The notes under the pieces were generated by a model that searched no databases, was not told the DNA's origin, and saw only the letters and a list, made by a program, of their open reading frames with translations. The translations under genes were made by a program, and so were the position numbers. From Pseudonocardia autotrophica (lineage in GTDB: Bacteria > Actinomycetota > Actinomycetes > Mycobacteriales > Pseudonocardiaceae), in assembly GCF_003945385.1 (NCBI RefSeq), contig NZ_AP018920.1, positions 496,001 to 560,000 on the forward strand: 64,000 nucleotides of DNA, written 5' to 3'. Positions 36,124-42,015 of the stretch are shown here, in pieces (the stretch's first letter is position 1; each line of letters starts with the position of its first letter).

Positions 36124-36857
36124 CCCCTCCGCACGGCTCCGGGGCCGGTGCATCGGGCACCGGCCCCGGGGGCGACCGGCCGGACCAGGGAGAGCATGAT
36201 TTCCCGGTGTCCTTCGCGATCCCGCCGACCCGGCGCGAGGCGATCACCCGCCAGCTCCGTGGTGAGATCGTCCAGGGCACGCTCGCGCCCGGGGCCGTCA
36301 TCAAGGACGCCGAGCTCGCCGCCCGGCTCGGCGTCAGCATCACCCCGGTCCGCGAGGCGATCGCCCAGCTCGTCGCCGAGGGGCTCGTCGACGTCGCGCC
36401 GAACCGGACCCGGCGGATCGCCGACCTGAACGTGCAGAACGCCGTCGACCTGATCGACGTGATGGGCCTGCTCGCCTGCGCCGGCGTCGAGTGGGGCATC
36501 GAGAACATCACCGACGACCACCTCGGACGGCTGCGCACCCGGCTCACCGAGCTCGAGGACGCGCTGGCCCGCAACGACGTGACCGCCGCCAACGCCGCAG
36601 GATCGGACTTCAGCACCATCCTGATCCTGGCGAGCGGCAACCGGGAGCTGCAGACCCACGTCGATCTCGTCGTCACACGGACACAGCGGATGATGGCGCT
36701 GAACTCGGACAGCGCGATGTGGACCCCGTGGACCACCGGCTACCGCGCCGTCCTCGACCTGCTCGAACGCGACGACCGGGCGGGGGCCGTCGAGCGGTAC
36801 CGGCAGATCTACCGGGAATGCCGGGCGCTGCTCGGTGCCGCGACCGAACAGGCCTGA
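36120..36857 (+). CDS. GntR-family (FadR/FCD type) transcriptional regulator
   Basis: A 245-residue regulator from a GTG that overlaps the monooxygenase stop (GTGA). The winged helix is TRREAITRQLRGEIVQGTL, then IKDAELAARLGVSITPVREAIAQL (typical GntR recognition helix VTPVREAL-like). A helical FCD-type effector domain follows. The first 30 residues are Gly/Pro-rich; a GTG at 36207 (VSFAIPPTRREA) would remove them and is a fair alternative. Its place at the end of the catabolic set suggests control of that set. Confidence 0.85.
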   Translation: MTPPHGSGAGASGTGPGGDRPDQGEHDFPVSFAIPPTRREAITRQLRGEIVQGTLAPGAVIKDAELAARLGVSITPVREAIAQLVAEGLVDVAPNRTRRIADLNVQNAVDLIDVMGLLACAGVEWGIENITDDHLGRLRTRLTELEDALARNDVTAANAAGSDFSTILILASGNRELQTHVDLVVTRTQRMMALNSDSAMWTPWTTGYRAVLDLLERDDRAGAVERYRQIYRECRALLGAATEQA

Positions 36858-36862
36858 CGGCA

Positions 36863-36909
36863 CGAACGGGCCCCTGCGCGGGAGTGGCTCCCACACAGCG
36901 GCCCGTTCG
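36863..36909. terminator. Bidirectional terminator hairpin
   Basis: CGAACGGGCC (36863-36872) pairs perfectly with GGCCCGTTCG (36900-36909). An inner GGGAG/CTCCC stem lies in the loop. It stands between the convergent GntR and DUF1416 genes. Confidence 0.75.
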
Positions 36910-36935
36910 CGGTGCTGTCTCGCGCCTTCGCAAGC

Positions 36936-37235
36936 TCAGGCGACGGTGATCTCCGTCTGGTGCAGCCCCGGCCCGTCGACGACGAAGTCGGACTGCCCGT
37001 TGCCCGAGCGCGACAGCGCCCGGACGGTCCAGGATCCCGGAGCGGCAAAGAACCGGAAGTCCCCGGAGGCCGAGGACACGACCTCCGCGGTGAACTCACC
37101 GGTGCCGTCCAGCAGCCGGACGAACGCGCCACCGACCGGGTCGCCCCCGGCCACCACGCGTCCGGCGAGCACGGTCTCCTTCTCCAGGTCGGTGCCCGCG
37201 GGCAGGCTCACGGTCTGGTCAGGTGCACCACACAT
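36936..37235 (-). CDS. sseC: DUF1416 protein (SseC-like)
   Basis: A 99-residue beta-rich protein of the DUF1416 family, which has an immunoglobulin-like carboxypeptidase-regulatory type fold: VLAGRVVAGGDPVGGAFVRLLD, then SGDFRFFAAPGSWTVRALS. Actinomycetes encode it directly after a thiosulfate sulfurtransferase, where it is named SseC. The molecular role is unknown. A single base separates it from the sulfurtransferase stop, so it is the last gene of the sulfur operon. Confidence 0.88.
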   Translation of the reverse strand: MCGAPDQTVSLPAGTDLEKETVLAGRVVAGGDPVGGAFVRLLDGTGEFTAEVVSSASGDFRFFAAPGSWTVRALSRSGNGQSDFVVDGPGLHQTEITVA

Positions 37236-37236
37236 G

Positions 37237-38073
37237 TCACTTCGCTCCCAGTTCGATCGGCACGCCGATCAGCGAGCCGTACTCGGTCCAGCTGCCGTCG
37301 TAGTTCTTCACGTCCGCGTGGCCGAGCAGCTCGTGCAGCACCACCCAGGTGTGGCTCGAGCGCTCGCCGATCCGGCAGTACGCGATGGTCGACCGGCCCT
37401 CGTCGAAGCCGGCCTCCTTGTACAGCGCGGCCAGCTCCTCGTCGGACTTGAAGGTGCCGTCCTCGTTCGCGGCCTTCGACCACGGGATGTTGATGGCCGA
37501 CGGGATGTGCCCCGGGCGCTGCGACTGCTCCTGCGGCAGGTGCGCCGGAGCCAGGATCTTCCCGGAGAACTCGTCGGGCGACCGGACGTCGACCAGGTTC
37601 TTCGCGTCGATGGCCTCGACGACCTCGTCGCGGAACGCGCGGATCGAGTTGTCGGCCTCCTTGGCGGTGTAGGAGGTCGCCGGGCGGTCCTTGACGTCGG
37701 TGGTCAGGGTCCGGCCGTCGAGCTCCCACTTCTTGCGGCCGCCGTCGAGCAGCACCACGTTGTCGTGGCCGTAGAGCTTGAACTCCCAGTACGCGTAGGC
37801 GGCGAACCAGTTGTTGTTGCCGCCGTAGAGCACGACCTTGTCGTCGTTCGAGACGCCCTTGGCGGAGAGCAGCTGCTCGAACTGCTCCTTGGTGGGGATG
37901 TCGCGACGGACCGCGTCCTGCAGCTCGTCGGTCCAGTTGACCTTGACCGCACCGGGGATGTGACCCCCGTCGTAGGCGGTGGTGTCCTCGTCGACCTCGA
38001 GGAACACCACCCCGTCGGTCTCCAGGTTCTGCTCCGCCCAGTCGGCGGTGACGAGGACGTCCTCGCGGCTCAT
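37237..38073 (-). CDS. cysA: Thiosulfate sulfurtransferase (rhodanese, CysA2/SseA type)
   Basis: A 278-residue protein of two rhodanese domains. The N-terminal inactive domain has VVLYGGNNNWFAAYAYW, in which Cys is replaced by Gly; the C-terminal active domain has the catalytic loop AYCRIGERSSHTW with the persulfide-forming Cys. It transfers sulfur from thiosulfate or mercaptopyruvate to thiol acceptors. The ATG at 38073 gives the usual N-terminus (SREDVLVTADWAEQNL). It lies between DUF4395 and DUF1416 genes, 40 bases after the former, in the order known from mycobacterial cysA2-sseC. Confidence 0.93.
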   Translation of the reverse strand: MSREDVLVTADWAEQNLETDGVVFLEVDEDTTAYDGGHIPGAVKVNWTDELQDAVRRDIPTKEQFEQLLSAKGVSNDDKVVLYGGNNNWFAAYAYWEFKLYGHDNVVLLDGGRKKWELDGRTLTTDVKDRPATSYTAKEADNSIRAFRDEVVEAIDAKNLVDVRSPDEFSGKILAPAHLPQEQSQRPGHIPSAINIPWSKAANEDGTFKSDEELAALYKEAGFDEGRSTIAYCRIGERSSHTWVVLHELLGHADVKNYDGSWTEYGSLIGVPIELGAK

Positions 38074-38113
38074 GTGTGTTCTCTCCGAATCGTGTCGCGT
38101 GAAGTTGAACGGG

Positions 38114-38581
38114 TCAGGGGCGCGCGGTGGCGGTGCCACCACTGCGCAGGCGGGCGAGGAGCCCGTACATCTCGCAGCCCAGGCAGTAGCCGAAGGCCGC
38201 GTTGAGGAACGCTGCGACGAGCGCCGCCGCGGTGGCGACGACGCCGAGCGCGGTCAGGCCGGTCAGGTACCCGACGGTGGCGATGACGGTGAACACCAGC
38301 CCGACGGTCTGCGAGAAGCGGACCGGGGCGGCGTCCTCCCACTCCGTGGGCGGTCCCAGCCGTGGCGCGAGCAGTACCCGGTACAGCGCTCCGTAGGGGG
38401 CGAATCGCATCCCGGCCACGGCGCCGACGCCGAACACGACGGCTTGTGCTCCGACGAGCAGCCCGCTCCCGCTCACCAGCACCAGCGCCAGTACGACGGT
38501 GGTGACGGCGGCGGCGAACCGGACCCCACGTGGATCGAGCCGGGGCTCGGTGCGTGCGGGTCCGTTGTCCGCGACGGACAT
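38114..38581 (-). CDS. DUF4395 integral membrane protein
   Basis: A 155-residue protein with about four membrane helices. LDPRGVRFAAAVTTVVLALVL opens the first helix, and the C-terminal NAAFGYCLGCEMYGLLARL carries the conserved GxCxGCxxY pair of cysteines, facing the membrane edge. Family members are found with sulfurtransferase and thioredoxin-like genes, which suggests sulfur or redox transfer across the membrane (inference). The ATG at 38581 has AGGAG five bases upstream; that Shine-Dalgarno sequence can pair with the end of the upstream leader-peptide gene. Confidence 0.85.
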   Translation of the reverse strand: MSVADNGPARTEPRLDPRGVRFAAAVTTVVLALVLVSGSGLLVGAQAVVFGVGAVAGMRFAPYGALYRVLLAPRLGPPTEWEDAAPVRFSQTVGLVFTVIATVGYLTGLTALGVVATAAALVAAFLNAAFGYCLGCEMYGLLARLRSGGTATARP

Positions 38582-38584
38582 GGA

Positions 38585-38658
38585 GACTCCTGGTGGAACC
38601 GGGTTTCGGCCGGGACGTCCGTCAGGACGCGCGGCTCAGGGCACGCGGGTCAGGAGTC
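38585..38658 (-). promoter_or_regulatory. Shine-Dalgarno sequestering pair of the sulfur operon
   Basis: On the minus strand GACTCCTG (38658-38651), which spans the last codons and stop of the leader peptide, is perfectly complementary to CAGGAGTC (38592-38585), which contains the AGGAG ribosome-binding site of the DUF4395 gene. Pairing would hide the site. A ribosome paused at the Cys codons would cover the upstream half and free the site. The pairing is seen directly; the mechanism is inferred. Confidence 0.65.
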
Positions 38659-38724
38659 CAGACAGAGGCAGCCGGCGAGGCGGCACAGATCGACTGCGCG
38701 GCGTCGGGTCAGCGGCCAGTTCAC
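38650..38724 (-). CDS. Cysteine-rich leader peptide of the sulfur operon
   Basis: A 24-residue open frame from GTG at 38724 to TGA at 38650. It reads VNWPLTRRRAVDL..., with Cys at positions 14, 19 and 21, and ends LDS. The RRxxVDLCR core is the pattern of actinobacterial leader peptides found before cysteine and thiosulfate-sulfurtransferase genes. AGGGTA at 38732-38737 (TACCCT on the minus strand) lies seven bases before the GTG, so the message should be leaderless. In mycobacteria, leaderless polycysteine short frames before the homologous operon act as cysteine-responsive attenuators. The last codons pair with the next gene's ribosome-binding site. Confidence 0.8.
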   Translation of the reverse strand: MNWPLTRRRAVDLCRLAGCLCLDS

Positions 38725-38748
38725 ATCTGCGAGGGTAACCGACCCGGA

Positions 38749-38779
38749 GCGACCCGCACACCCCGTGCGGCCGGGTCGC
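38749..38779 (-). terminator. Hairpin terminator after the thioredoxin-like gene
   Basis: GCGACCCG pairs with CGGGTCGC, with an inner CAC/GTG extension and a four-base bulge. It lies between the stop of the thioredoxin-like gene and the leader-peptide promoter, separating two units read in the same direction. Confidence 0.6.
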
Positions 38780-38806
38780 TGCGTCACACTGCGAGAGGGT
38801 GTCCGG

Positions 38807-39235
38807 TCAGGCCGGTGCGGACGGCAGCGCGTCGGTCAGCTCGCCGGCCCGCGGCACACCGGAGATCCGCAGGATCTCGCCGCCGCCGGCATCGAAGACG
38901 ACGGTCGTCGGGGTACGCAGTACGCCCAGCGCACGGGCCACCTCGATCCGCTCGGCCACGTCGATCTCGACGTGCGCGAGGCCGGGATCGGCGGCCGCGA
39001 GATCACCGAGCAGTCGCGCGGTCTGCCGGCACGGCGTGCACACCGGTGAGGAGAGCTGGAGCAGCAGGGCACGCCTGCCGTCCGGTGCGACCCCGGCCAG
39101 TTCCCAGCCTCCGGCCCCGGCCGCCCGGCCCGGCGTCGTCGCCCGGACCCGTCCCGATCGTGCGCGCAGCACCAGCCCGGCGATCGTCGCGAGCGCCAGG
39201 GCCACGATCAGTACGACCAGTCCGCCGGTCTGCAC
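38807..39235 (-). CDS. Membrane-anchored thioredoxin-like protein
   Basis: A 142-residue protein. Residues 3-24 (TGGLVVLIVALALATIAGLVL) form a signal anchor. The thioredoxin fold follows with the redox motif in LQLSSPVCTPCRQTARLL (CTPC) and the cis-proline in LRTPTTVVFD. It probably works outside the membrane or at its surface as a thiol-disulfide exchanger (ThiX-like, Rv0816c in M. tuberculosis from recall). The GTG at 39235 is 15 bases after the DUF2993 gene, suggesting co-transcription with it rather than with the downstream sulfur operon. Confidence 0.82.
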   Translation of the reverse strand: MQTGGLVVLIVALALATIAGLVLRARSGRVRATTPGRAAGAGGWELAGVAPDGRRALLLQLSSPVCTPCRQTARLLGDLAAADPGLAHVEIDVAERIEVARALGVLRTPTTVVFDAGGGEILRISGVPRAGELTDALPSAPA

Positions 39236-39250
39236 CTGCGCCTCCCCGGG

Positions 39251-40066
39251 TCAGCTCGTGGAGCGGGTGGCCCCGTCTCCGCCGATGTCGAGGTCCCGGA
39301 CCGCACCGGAGATCTCCAGGACGTTGTACTCCGGGATCGACGCCGACGTCGGTGTGACGCCGAGCGGGAGCGTCCCGGGATCCAGCTCCACCGCCAGCGC
39401 GCGCAGCAGCGAGTCGCGCACCGCGTCCGGGACGGCCTCGTCGGTGTCCAGCTCGCGGACGTCGCGCGGCACGATCCGCAGCACCCCGTCGGCGACGACG
39501 AGCGTGCTCAGCACGGCCACCCGGGTGTCCGAGCCGTCCACCGGCAGCTCGGCGACGAACCGGGCGGCGGTGCGCGGGTCCGTCCCGCGCAGCGTCGGGT
39601 CGGCCCCGGCCCGGATCGCGGTGTCGATCGCGTTGGCGTCGACCACATCGACGGTCAGCCGCTCGACCCCGGCGGCGGGCCCGCCGGACGCCACGACCAT
39701 CCGCCGGATGTCGTTCGGGCTGATCCGGACGGTCCCCTCGGCTGCGGCCGCCCGGAACCGGGCCGGCCCGGAGCCGACCAGCGCGGACAGCGGCGCGCGC
39801 ACCCCGTACAGCTCCACCCCGACCTCGGGCGTACGCAGCGGGCCGATCGGGACCCGCTCCATCGAGACCTCCACCTGGCCGTAGCGGCCGGTCACGGCCT
39901 GGGCGAGGAAGGAGAACCCGGTGACCCGGACGGCCGGGTCCTCCGGCAGGTCCAGGGTGTCGCGCATCTGCCGGGCGATACCGGACTCGGCCGCGGCACC
40001 GGCGCCGAGATCGGCGAGTACGAGCACGGCGGCCACGGCCAGCACGGCGGCGAGCGCCCGCTTCAC
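39251..40066 (-). CDS. DUF2993 (LmeA-like) exported protein
   Basis: A 271-residue protein. [20 protein letters not shown] is a signal peptide or anchor, and the rest is a DUF2993 domain ([31 protein letters not shown], then [10 protein letters not shown]). One mycobacterial member, LmeA, affects lipomannan elongation, so an envelope role is possible. The GTG at 40066 has GGGAGG four bases upstream. The 226 bases between it and glnR hold both divergent promoters and no further gene. Confidence 0.8.
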
Positions 40067-40292
40067 GGTGCCTCCCACGGGCGGTGCCTCCCTGTGGCGG
40101 GTTCGGGACCCCCGAACGGTAGAGACCGGGCCGCCCGCGCCCGCGCCCGGCCCCCGACCTCCCCGGACGGGCGGGTCGGGGTGCACCGATCAGTGGATCG
40201 ATACACCTTCCGAGCGTGAGGCAGATCGCGATCCGGCTGACCAGCGCATGACGTGGCGGTATCGTCTGCGTATCGCGCGAGAGGAGGAGTCC

Positions 40293-41087
40293 ATGGAACT
40301 GCTCCTGCTGACCACGGCTCCCGACGCGGCAGCGGTGCTGCCCGCCCTGTCCCTGCTTCCGCACAACGTCCGGACCGCGGCGCCCGAGGTGGCCGCACTG
40401 CTCGACGCCGGGCCGCACGACGCGGTCCTGGTCGATGCCCGTAGTGACCTGGTGGCCGCCCGCAGCCTGTGCCGGCTGCTCGGCAGCACCGGAACCGACG
40501 TTCCGGTGATCGCCGTACTCAACGAGGGTGGCCTGGTGGCCGTCTCCGGCGAGTGGGTGGTGGACGAGATCCTGCTTCCCGACACCGGCCCCGCCGAGGT
40601 CGACGCGCGGCTGCGGCTGCTGCGGTCCCGGCCCGGTGCGGAGTCCGCCGCAGGCGGCGGTGCACTGGTGCTCGGTGAGCTGGTGATCGACGAGGCCACC
40701 TACTCGGCCCGGCTCAAGGGCCGGCTGCTGGAGCTCACCTACAAGGAGTTCGAGCTGCTCAAGTACCTCGCGCAGCACGCGGGCCGGGTGTTCACCCGGG
40801 CCCAGCTGCTGCAGGAGGTCTGGGGCTACGACTTCTTCGGTGGCACCCGCACGGTCGATGTGCACGTGCGGCGGCTGCGGGCCAAGCTCGGCGGTGAGCA
40901 CGAGCAGATGATCGGCACCGTACGCAACGTCGGGTACAAGTTCGTCCGGCCGTCCCGTGGCGGGCTGACCGCCCCACCGGACCCGGAGGGTGAGACCGAT
41001 CCCGAGCCCGTCGACCGTCGCCTCCCGGGCGCGGCCCGCCCCACCGGCCCCGGCCGGACCACGCCGGGGGCGCTCTCGTCACGCTGA
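40293..41087 (+). CDS. glnR: GlnR-type OmpR-family response regulator of nitrogen metabolism
   Basis: A 264-residue regulator. [22 protein letters not shown] opens the receiver domain of GlnR proteins (split at AAA), which is atypical and usually not phosphorylated; VLVDARSDL holds the one retained Asp. Residues 125-225 are the winged-helix DNA-binding domain ([21 protein letters not shown], then [19 protein letters not shown]). GlnR controls glutamine synthetase and ammonium uptake. The C-terminal 40 residues form a proline-rich extension. GAGGAGGAG precedes the ATG. Its place before mshD and the pst operon matches Rv0818. Confidence 0.88.
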
Positions 41088-41105
41088 CGTTCTGCGACGA
41101 GGCAC

Positions 41106-41111
41106 TAGGGT
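41106..41111 (+). promoter_or_regulatory. Leaderless-type -10 box of mshD
   Basis: TAGGGT ends seven bases before the GTG at 41119, and CTGACG 16 bases further up (41084-41089) may be the -35. Confidence 0.55.
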
Positions 41112-41118
41112 CCGCGGC

Positions 41119-42015
41119 GTGGATCCGCAGGTGCTCACCCGACTCGACTCCGACACCGCCGCAGCGGTGCACGAATTGCTGGCCGCCGCCGGCTCCCACG
41201 ACGGTGCGGAACCGTTGTCCGACCAGTTCCTGCGCAACCTGCGCACCGACGAGCCCCGCGACGGTGTGCTGCACGTGATCGCCGGTCTCCCCGACGGGCC
41301 GGCCGTCGCCGGCTACGCCCAGCTCGACGGCGAGTACGCCGAGCTGGCGGTACACCCGGACCGGCGCCGTCGCGGGATCGGCTCCGCCCTCGTCCGGGCG
41401 CTGGAGGCGGCGACACCGGATCCGCACGTGTGGGCGCACGGCGACCTCGACGCCGCGAAGGCGCTCGCCGAGGCCCGCGGCTACCGCCGGGACCGGGTGC
41501 TGTGGCAGATGCGGCGTCCGCTCACCGGGCCGGACGCGCCCGCGTTGCCCGGGATCGAGCTCCCCGACGGCGTCATCCTCCGCTCATTCGTCCCCGGGCA
41601 GGACGACGCGGAGTTCCTGCGGGTCAACAACGCCGCCTTCGACTGGCACCCCGAGCAGGGCGGCTGGACCGGCGGCGAGCTCGCCGACCGGCAGGCCGAG
41701 GACTGGTTCGACGCCGACGGGTTCCTGATCGCCACCGACCCGTCCGGCACGCTGCTGGGCTACCACTGGACCAAGGTGCATCCGGCCACCGGTGACGAGC
41801 CCGCGATGGGCGAGGTCTACGTGCTCGGCGTCGACCCGGCCGCACACGGCCGTGGCCTCGGCCGCGTGCTGACCCTGGCCGGTCTGCAGTACCTGCGCGA
41901 CCGCGGACTGGGCACCGTGCTGCTCTACGTCGAAGCGGACAACACCCCCGCGGTGCGGGTGTACGAGCGACTCGGGTTCGACGTGTACGCCGCGGACGTG
42001 AACTACGCCCGCTGA
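41119..42015 (+). CDS. mshD: Mycothiol synthase
   Basis: A 298-residue acetyltransferase that adds the acetyl group to Cys-GlcN-Ins, the last step of mycothiol synthesis. It has two GNAT domains: the first with LAVHPDRRRRGIGSALVRAL, the second with VLGVDPAAHGRGLGRVLT as the acetyl-CoA loops, then LYVEADNTPAVRVYERLGF. Length and tandem layout are those of MshD. GTG at 41119 is chosen from the leaderless promoter. The position between glnR and pst genes matches Rv0819. Confidence 0.93.
   Translation: MDPQVLTRLDSDTAAAVHELLAAAGSHDGAEPLSDQFLRNLRTDEPRDGVLHVIAGLPDGPAVAGYAQLDGEYAELAVHPDRRRRGIGSALVRALEAATPDPHVWAHGDLDAAKALAEARGYRRDRVLWQMRRPLTGPDAPALPGIELPDGVILRSFVPGQDDAEFLRVNNAAFDWHPEQGGWTGGELADRQAEDWFDADGFLIATDPSGTLLGYHWTKVHPATGDEPAMGEVYVLGVDPAAHGRGLGRVLTLAGLQYLRDRGLGTVLLYVEADNTPAVRVYERLGFDVYAADVNYAR

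Follow-up and report, generated by a model that had tools for sequence, protein, structure and literature searches.

The 64,000-nucleotide stretch of the Pseudonocardia autotrophica genome analysed here (the window) contains a sulfurtransferase gene and its neighbours preceded by a short reading frame with three Cys codons, which raises the question of whether this frame controls the genes behind it and, if so, how it senses cysteine. In our reading, it is a translational attenuator of the Ms5788A family, leaderless and cysteine-sensing, that controls the genes for a DUF4395 protein, a sulfurtransferase and a DUF1416 protein, with a probability of roughly 0.85. This reading is carried by the anatomy of the leader, its family membership and conservation, the predicted pairing of its end with the Shine-Dalgarno site of the DUF4395 gene and the modelled opening of that site; the stall and the direction of the cysteine response at this leader we infer.

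Anatomy, family and conservation of the leader

The leader and its putative target genes lie on the minus strand. A TACCCT -10 box (38732..38737) is found 7 bases 5' of a GTG codon (38724-38722) that opens a frame of 24 codons (38650..38724, stop codon TGA at 38652-38650) encoding MNWPLTRRRAVDLCRLAGCLCLDS. This spacing would place the transcription start at or beside the GTG, so that the transcript would be leaderless, and it fits the trait that marks the leaderless class, a start codon at the 5' end of the mRNA. Cys codons stand at positions 14 (TGC, 38685-38683), 19 (TGC, 38670-38668) and 21 (TGT, 38662..38664), the last being the Cys of the conserved motif and, given the conservation of TGT among leaders, the likely stall codon. 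Re-reading of the minus-strand sequence reproduced the box, its distance from the GTG, the frame and the three Cys positions given in the preliminary description. The strand GGACTCCTG (38651..38659), which begins at the end of codon 22 and reaches into the stop codon, is the putative anti-Shine-Dalgarno strand, and its pairing partner is the Shine-Dalgarno site CAGGAGTCT (38584..38592) of the DUF4395 gene. The segment GACTCCTG (38658-38651; the last two codons and the stop codon, read as GAC TCC TG) is perfectly complementary to CAGGAGTC (38592-38585) in front of that gene, exactly over the eight bases claimed earlier, and one further G-U pair, 38659 with 38584, lengthens the helix.

The first of the putative target genes, that for the DUF4395 protein (38114..38581; Pfam PF14340, 155 bits), is followed by the gene for a thiosulfate sulfurtransferase-like protein with Rhodanese domains (37237..38073; Pfam PF00581, 127.8 bits, which is the score of the longer open reading frame 37237-38142, the start at MSREDVL having been picked by eye) and by a DUF1416 gene (36936..37235; Pfam PF07210, 140.5 bits), which we take to be SseC-like. 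These three genes are probably co-transcribed as an operon. A thioredoxin-like gene lies upstream of the leader on the same strand, and the frames at 39251-42015 of the window presumably code for proteins resembling LmeA, GlnR and MshD, which are neighbours of cysA2 in mycobacteria. A search with Rfam yielded no matches up to E = 1 at positions 36500-40000 and none at the gathering score in seven related loci, the leader peptide itself had no match in Pfam, and no sigma-70-consensus site was found in a scan of 38560-38800.

On this anatomy, a simple mode of action can be proposed. Transcription would start at the GTG, so that ribosomes would load on the leader itself. With ample cysteine, a ribosome would complete the leader and depart, and the freed strand GGACUCCUG would base-pair with AGGAG in front of the DUF4395 gene, holding the site shut. 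When charged tRNA-Cys is scarce, the ribosome would pause with the Cys21 UGU codon in its A site and cover the anti-Shine-Dalgarno strand, so that the site of the DUF4395 gene would stay open.

The leader peptide scored 46 bits against the NCBIfam model NF042933 ("Ms5788A family Cys-rich leader peptide"; curated cut-off 45) and 41.9 bits, under the cut-off, when the same leader was recovered in a six-frame search of the genome. It sits near the threshold and at the edge of the family. Its score against NF042934 ("putative leader peptide"; cut-off 27) was 35.3 bits. The genomic context of NF042933, upstream of an operon for DUF4395 and a cysA2-type sulfurtransferase, is also that of the window leader. 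Three leaders sampled from a second family of the same order (f2, probably the mycobacterial family) carry the same motif and each end in a Cys run; the gene that follows is a DUF4395 gene by Pfam in two of the three and by eye resembles a sulfurtransferase gene in the third. The published leaderless polycysteine class has contiguous Cys codons, unlike the window leader with its Cys at 14, 19 and 21, and among the leader peptides compared, runs of at least three Cys were confined to the three f2 leaders.

We examined 151 DUF4395 neighbourhoods, namely the window, 80 other loci and a further 70 from the window's family. For these 70, 139 of 150 genomes had matches, from which 30 loci were taken by score and 40 so as to cover genera. 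The motif-bearing leader frame was present in 94 neighbourhoods (the window itself, 33 of the 80 loci and 60 of the 70 from its family), whereas 57 yielded no leader by the search pattern, which demands at least one Cys after RR. A TANNNT box stood 6-7 nt before the start codon used in 93 of the 94 leaders, a proportion that is partly by construction, as the start codon was selected for having a box; among all ATG and GTG codons in the 400-nt upstream stretches, 106 of 1611 were boxed, leader starts included. The recurrence of the motif frame together with the box thus marks the leader as more than a chance frame. The 86 distinct leaders that remain after setting aside one without a boxed start, three that overlap the chosen gene start and the duplicates begin with GTG (65) or ATG (21).

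The frame is therefore found in Pseudonocardia and beyond, and together with the score above the NF042933 cut-off and the modelled opening of the site this supports the earlier proposal of a leaderless cysteine-sensing leader peptide whose end can sequester the ribosome-binding site. What the preliminary description had held to be new fared less well: placement before a DUF4395 gene is shared by two of the three f2 leaders, and three spaced Cys codons are indeed present here but only the last of them is, by itself, near-universal among the 94 leaders. The claims of novelty do not hold; the leader is of a known kind, and it would extend the mycobacterial mechanism to Pseudonocardia.

Two deviations from the common pattern were seen. 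One leader (L165), among the 60 from the window's family, looks decayed: its motif Cys is replaced by Arg (CGT) and it has no boxed start codon; five other sampled genomes of its genus had no DUF4395 match. Four leaders from the window's family (L093, L097, L099 and L167) appear to represent a variant architecture, in which the leader frame extends 14-16 codons beyond the motif Cys and its stop codon comes one base before the DUF4395 ATG (TGAcATG), with the Shine-Dalgarno site inside the leader. Pairing of that site with the stop-codon region is impossible in these four, so translational coupling looks more likely.

The UGU codon and its peptide context

The motif Cys codon was TGT in 93 of the 94 DUF4395 leaders, the only exception being the CGT of L165. 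A class-wide sample, collected by running the peptide model on 118 genomes, of which 89 had matches, gave the same picture, with TGT in all 90 leaders read (89 distinct 57-nt stretches); these represent 27 families, 47 genera and 72 genomes. These 90 are part of a longer match list, mostly the better-scoring part; seven of them were missed by the motif pattern, which asks for Cys, and were added by their search coordinates, and the leaders of two clipped loci (L193 and L194) were positioned by motif. The other Cys codons of the same 90 leaders were TGC in 105 cases and TGT in 19, compared with 182 and 39 in a crude background of surrounding frames of at least 100 codons with GC3 >0.85, leaders included. 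The first motif Cys, present in 77 of the 86 distinct leaders, was encoded by TGC in 74 and by TGT in 3, the DUF4395 genes (in the parts available) had 104 TGC and 3 TGT, and nine genes of the window had 13 and 1. Elsewhere, TGT is a minority codon, not an absent one.

The base that follows the motif Cys codon is constrained as well, being C in 73, T in 16, A in 1 and G in none of the 90 class-wide leaders (C 81, T 11 and A 2 in the 94 DUF4395 leaders). The residue encoded there varies (Arg 39, Pro 19, Cys 9, Leu 8 and Gln 7, more rarely a stop codon, 4, Ser, 3, or Met, 1). Upstream, all 90 leaders share an Arg 13, an Asp 9 and an Arg 6 residues before the motif Cys, while the third bases of these codons drift (Arg-13: G 41, C 26, T 12, A 11; Asp-9: C 70, T 20). 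Because these leaders were collected with a model of the leader peptide, constancy of residues is partly a matter of selection of the sample, whereas the choice of codon lies outside the model. Two things seem, on this codon and residue usage, to be under selection, namely the peptide, and one synonymous codon together with its 3' neighbour.

Attenuation theory explains codon bias in leaders by the differential charging of isoacceptors (PMC1183508). We rejected this cause for UGU: among 52 tRNA matches in the genome, read by ARAGORN, there were two tRNA-Cys genes (as cut, differing at 2 of 73 bases), both with the anticodon GCA, and one anticodon serving UGU and UGC cannot account for the preference. 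A second candidate, RNA pairing of the constant U, was weakened, since in 25 of 86 and 31 of 90 leaders no partner exceeded p 0.3 and the commonest partner offsets were common to only 11 and 10 of the 86; in predicted folds this U was nevertheless paired more often than not (mean unpaired probability 0.33 and 0.38). Synonymous codons read by one tRNA can differ in speed, and this speed depends on their neighbours (PMC4046918; Cys codons are not mentioned there). The literature search, of which the text of Canestrari 2020 lay outside the scope, found no report of a constant UGU in these leaders, although the observation may already be in print.

The reading that we favour for the codon is that UGU, decoded by G-U wobble and followed by a pyrimidine, may act as a slow stall codon of high sensitivity, perhaps in concert with the nascent peptide. 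As speculation, a sulfur-containing tRNA modification could play a role in the reading of UGU. The strongest rival of sensing by starvation at several Cys codons is a sequence-dependent arrest in which the conserved nascent R, D and R and a slow UGU-pyrimidine make one codon the sensor. The constancy of R, D, R and C against drifting third bases, even if partly imposed by the sample, speaks for such an arrest, as do the contrast between UGU at the motif position and UGC elsewhere in the leaders, the near-absence of purines after the codon, the single tRNA-Cys anticodon found, the poorly shared pairing partners of the U and the context-dependent speeds of same-tRNA codons (PMC4046918). However, conservation of the peptide could have another cause, several leaders carry extra Cys codons, as plain starvation sensing expects, and a U that is mostly paired in predicted folds could have a structural role. 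On balance, we regard arrest as a serious contender that falls slightly short of even odds. It is compatible with the attenuator favoured above, since masking of the Shine-Dalgarno site may remain the output step.

A corresponding rule for the whole class would be that the sensor is one UGU-pyrimidine codon in a nascent R-x3-D-x2-R-x5-C context, and not the number of Cys codons, acting either through decoding (G-U wobble in a weak 3' context, perhaps with a dependence on tRNA modification) or through codon-specific arrest; we put this forward tentatively, as a proposition with nearly as much for it as against it. If true, it would amount to a regulon-wide synonymous-codon rule beyond the isoacceptor-charging theory of attenuation. 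The constant UGU and the R/D/R/C peptide also sharpen the question to why one of two codons read by the same tRNA is fixed at one place across 27 sampled families, when UGC prevails among the other Cys codons. The constancy of UGU is unexplained, and this rule of codon and peptide is the part of the present analysis that deserves specialist attention.

Predicted pairing with the Shine-Dalgarno site

The minimum-energy fold of 38724-38570 includes the nine-pair helix between the leader and the Shine-Dalgarno site, which agrees with the pairing described for the minus strand in the preliminary description; the overall energy of this fold is unexceptional (z -1.52; 15 of 200 shuffled sequences fold at least as well). 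In the model of ribosome masking, the predicted probability that the Shine-Dalgarno core of the window is unpaired was 0.03 in the free RNA, 0.01 with a ribosome at Cys14 and 0.42 with one at Cys19 or Cys21. The proposed exposure of the site by a stalled ribosome is thus reproduced by modelling for Cys21, although a ribosome at Cys19 would open it equally well and one at Cys14 would not.

Across 81 leaders, the modelled effect was smaller. Mean accessibility of the site was 0.19 in the free RNA; it rose to 0.24 with a ribosome at the first motif position, to 0.30 at the second and to 0.33 at the third. A ribosome at the motif Cys raised it by >0.2 in 31 leaders, left it within 0.2 in 48 and lowered it in 2. 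In 14 leaders the site was also opened by a ribosome at the first motif Cys position, from which no opening should result, and in 23 by one at the second. Shuffling of the 12 nt after the motif Cys raised mean predicted accessibility from 0.186 to 0.253, and the real sequence was less accessible than the shuffled ones in 53 of the 81 leaders. As modelled, masking fits the window locus and Pseudonocardia well and the other genera only partly.

The pairing itself follows a similar division. Six core pairs can form in 13-15 of the 15 distinct leaders of Pseudonocardia type (MNWPL...), which share a well-defined register, with 121 pairs in place as against 55-76 in slid registers. The covariation that had been proposed as a check in related Pseudonocardiaceae did not materialize within this group, where the 121 pairs compare with a permuted-row mean of 120.0 (410 of 1000 permutations reach the observed number), because the columns of the core pairs barely vary; the observed mean duplex energy was likewise reached by 162 of 2000 permutations. 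The remaining 61 leaders form the two central pairs in only 15 and 11 cases, respectively, and their best-kept pairs join the stop codon and adjoining bases to the bases at or just before the start of AGGA. Here, cognate rows formed 400 pairs versus 364.5 in permuted ones (0 of 1000 permutations), with kinship between rows uncorrected. The same qualification applies to all genera taken together, with 521 pairs versus 479.4 (reached by 0 of 1000 permutations) and a cognate duplex energy of -15.72 versus -13.67 (0 of 2000); since relatedness between rows remains in these comparisons, we do not count the excess of cognate pairing as proof. Two other leader segments paired more weakly with the Shine-Dalgarno site (-12.85 and -12.13). 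The full nine-pair helix is not general and does not extend to most other genera.

This weakness of the helix in many other genera counts in favour of transcriptional attenuation, with an unstalled leader exposing the RNA to Rho and a stalled ribosome shielding it, as Seliverstov 2005 proposed for mycobacterial cys leaders (PMC1262725). It would also accord with the finding of no intrinsic-terminator-like site in the scan of 38560-38800. Nevertheless, the helix at the window locus is strong and in register, the M. smegmatis leaders are described as a case of translation attenuation (PMC13236596), and Seliverstov's own account calls the prediction of Rho sites "rather weak" (PMC1262725), so that we consider Rho-dependent control at this locus unlikely. 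That the frame and its pairing are there by chance, with no regulatory role, would suit the ordinary overall folding energy and the missing covariation within Pseudonocardia-type leaders but is contradicted by the conservation of the frame, the -10 spacing, the peptide motif and the codon across genera and families, as well as by the match to a curated family (NF042933), and can be practically dismissed.

Related leaders and known systems

The proposed translational attenuator before the DUF4395 gene may not act alone. Of 17 leader matches in the P. autotrophica genome, we examined the best 12 (L112-L123; L123 is weak, E 0.166), which comprise the window leader and eleven further NF042934-type places (L112, L113 and L115-L123), several of them upstream of genes of sulfur assimilation. 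The genes that follow the twelve places include those for a sulfite/nitrite reductase (L121), an O-acetylhomoserine (OAH) sulfhydrylase (L123), an SsuC-like permease (L115; below the cut-off of that model), an OsmC protein (L116) and LLM flavin monooxygenases (L113, L118 and L122). A boxed start codon was not seen in several of the twelve places. The motif position carried TGT in 11 of these best 12 of the 17 matches (10 of the 12 again on a second reading); L117, upstream of a gene for a FAD-NAD(P)-binding protein, has a TGA stop codon there. The leader at L112 is of the single-Cys type and is followed by a frame that by eye resembles a transposase; it is perhaps what is left of an operon severed by insertion. 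To judge from these positions, the leader-like places could form a cysteine regulon in this genome, and the window leader fits the idea of a single cysteine signal spread across many sulfur operons.

A stalled ribosome is said, in the model that Canestrari put forward in 2020, to block an RNA structure and so to unmask the sequestered ribosome-binding site of the next gene. Candidate cys leader peptides without terminators had been predicted in Mycobacterium by Seliverstov 2005 (PMC1262725), and Shell 2015 described a conserved Cys-rich leaderless frame before cysA2/Msmeg_5788 (PMC4633059). Six related Cys-rich frames of M. tuberculosis are listed as predicted regulators (PMC9094748), and Canestrari 2020, as recounted in PMC9031893 and PMC13236596, reported cysteine-dependent attenuation of downstream translation in M. 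smegmatis.

Among the closest known systems is the Ms5788A leader of M. smegmatis. It, too, is a short Cys leader that precedes DUF4395 and sulfurtransferase genes and shares the peptide motif, and translation downstream of it is, according to PMC9031893, set by the cysteine-dependent speed of the ribosome. The difference is that the three sampled f2 leaders end in a Cys run, whereas the window leader has three spaced Cys and an anti-Shine-Dalgarno strand that overlaps GAC TCC TGA. The cis-regulatory attenuators of NF042934 (cis_reg_atten) share the 19-residue motif with the window leader but form a broader family, often with a single Cys and also found before other sulfur genes. Another such system is uORFC-8-2 before cysS in Rhodobacterales, a Cys-codon uORF that has been proposed as an attenuator but has an intrinsic terminator and tandem Cys codons, among which UGC dominates, as far as PMC8632094 describes them; judging by this alpha-proteobacterial leader, Cys attenuators do not in general require UGU. 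Finally, the LEU element before actinobacterial leuA resembles the window leader in that its run of leader codons is able to base-pair with the Shine-Dalgarno site, but it responds to leucine, may form a pseudoknot and, in the account given in PMC1262725, has codon mutations that defy the classical prediction of attenuation.
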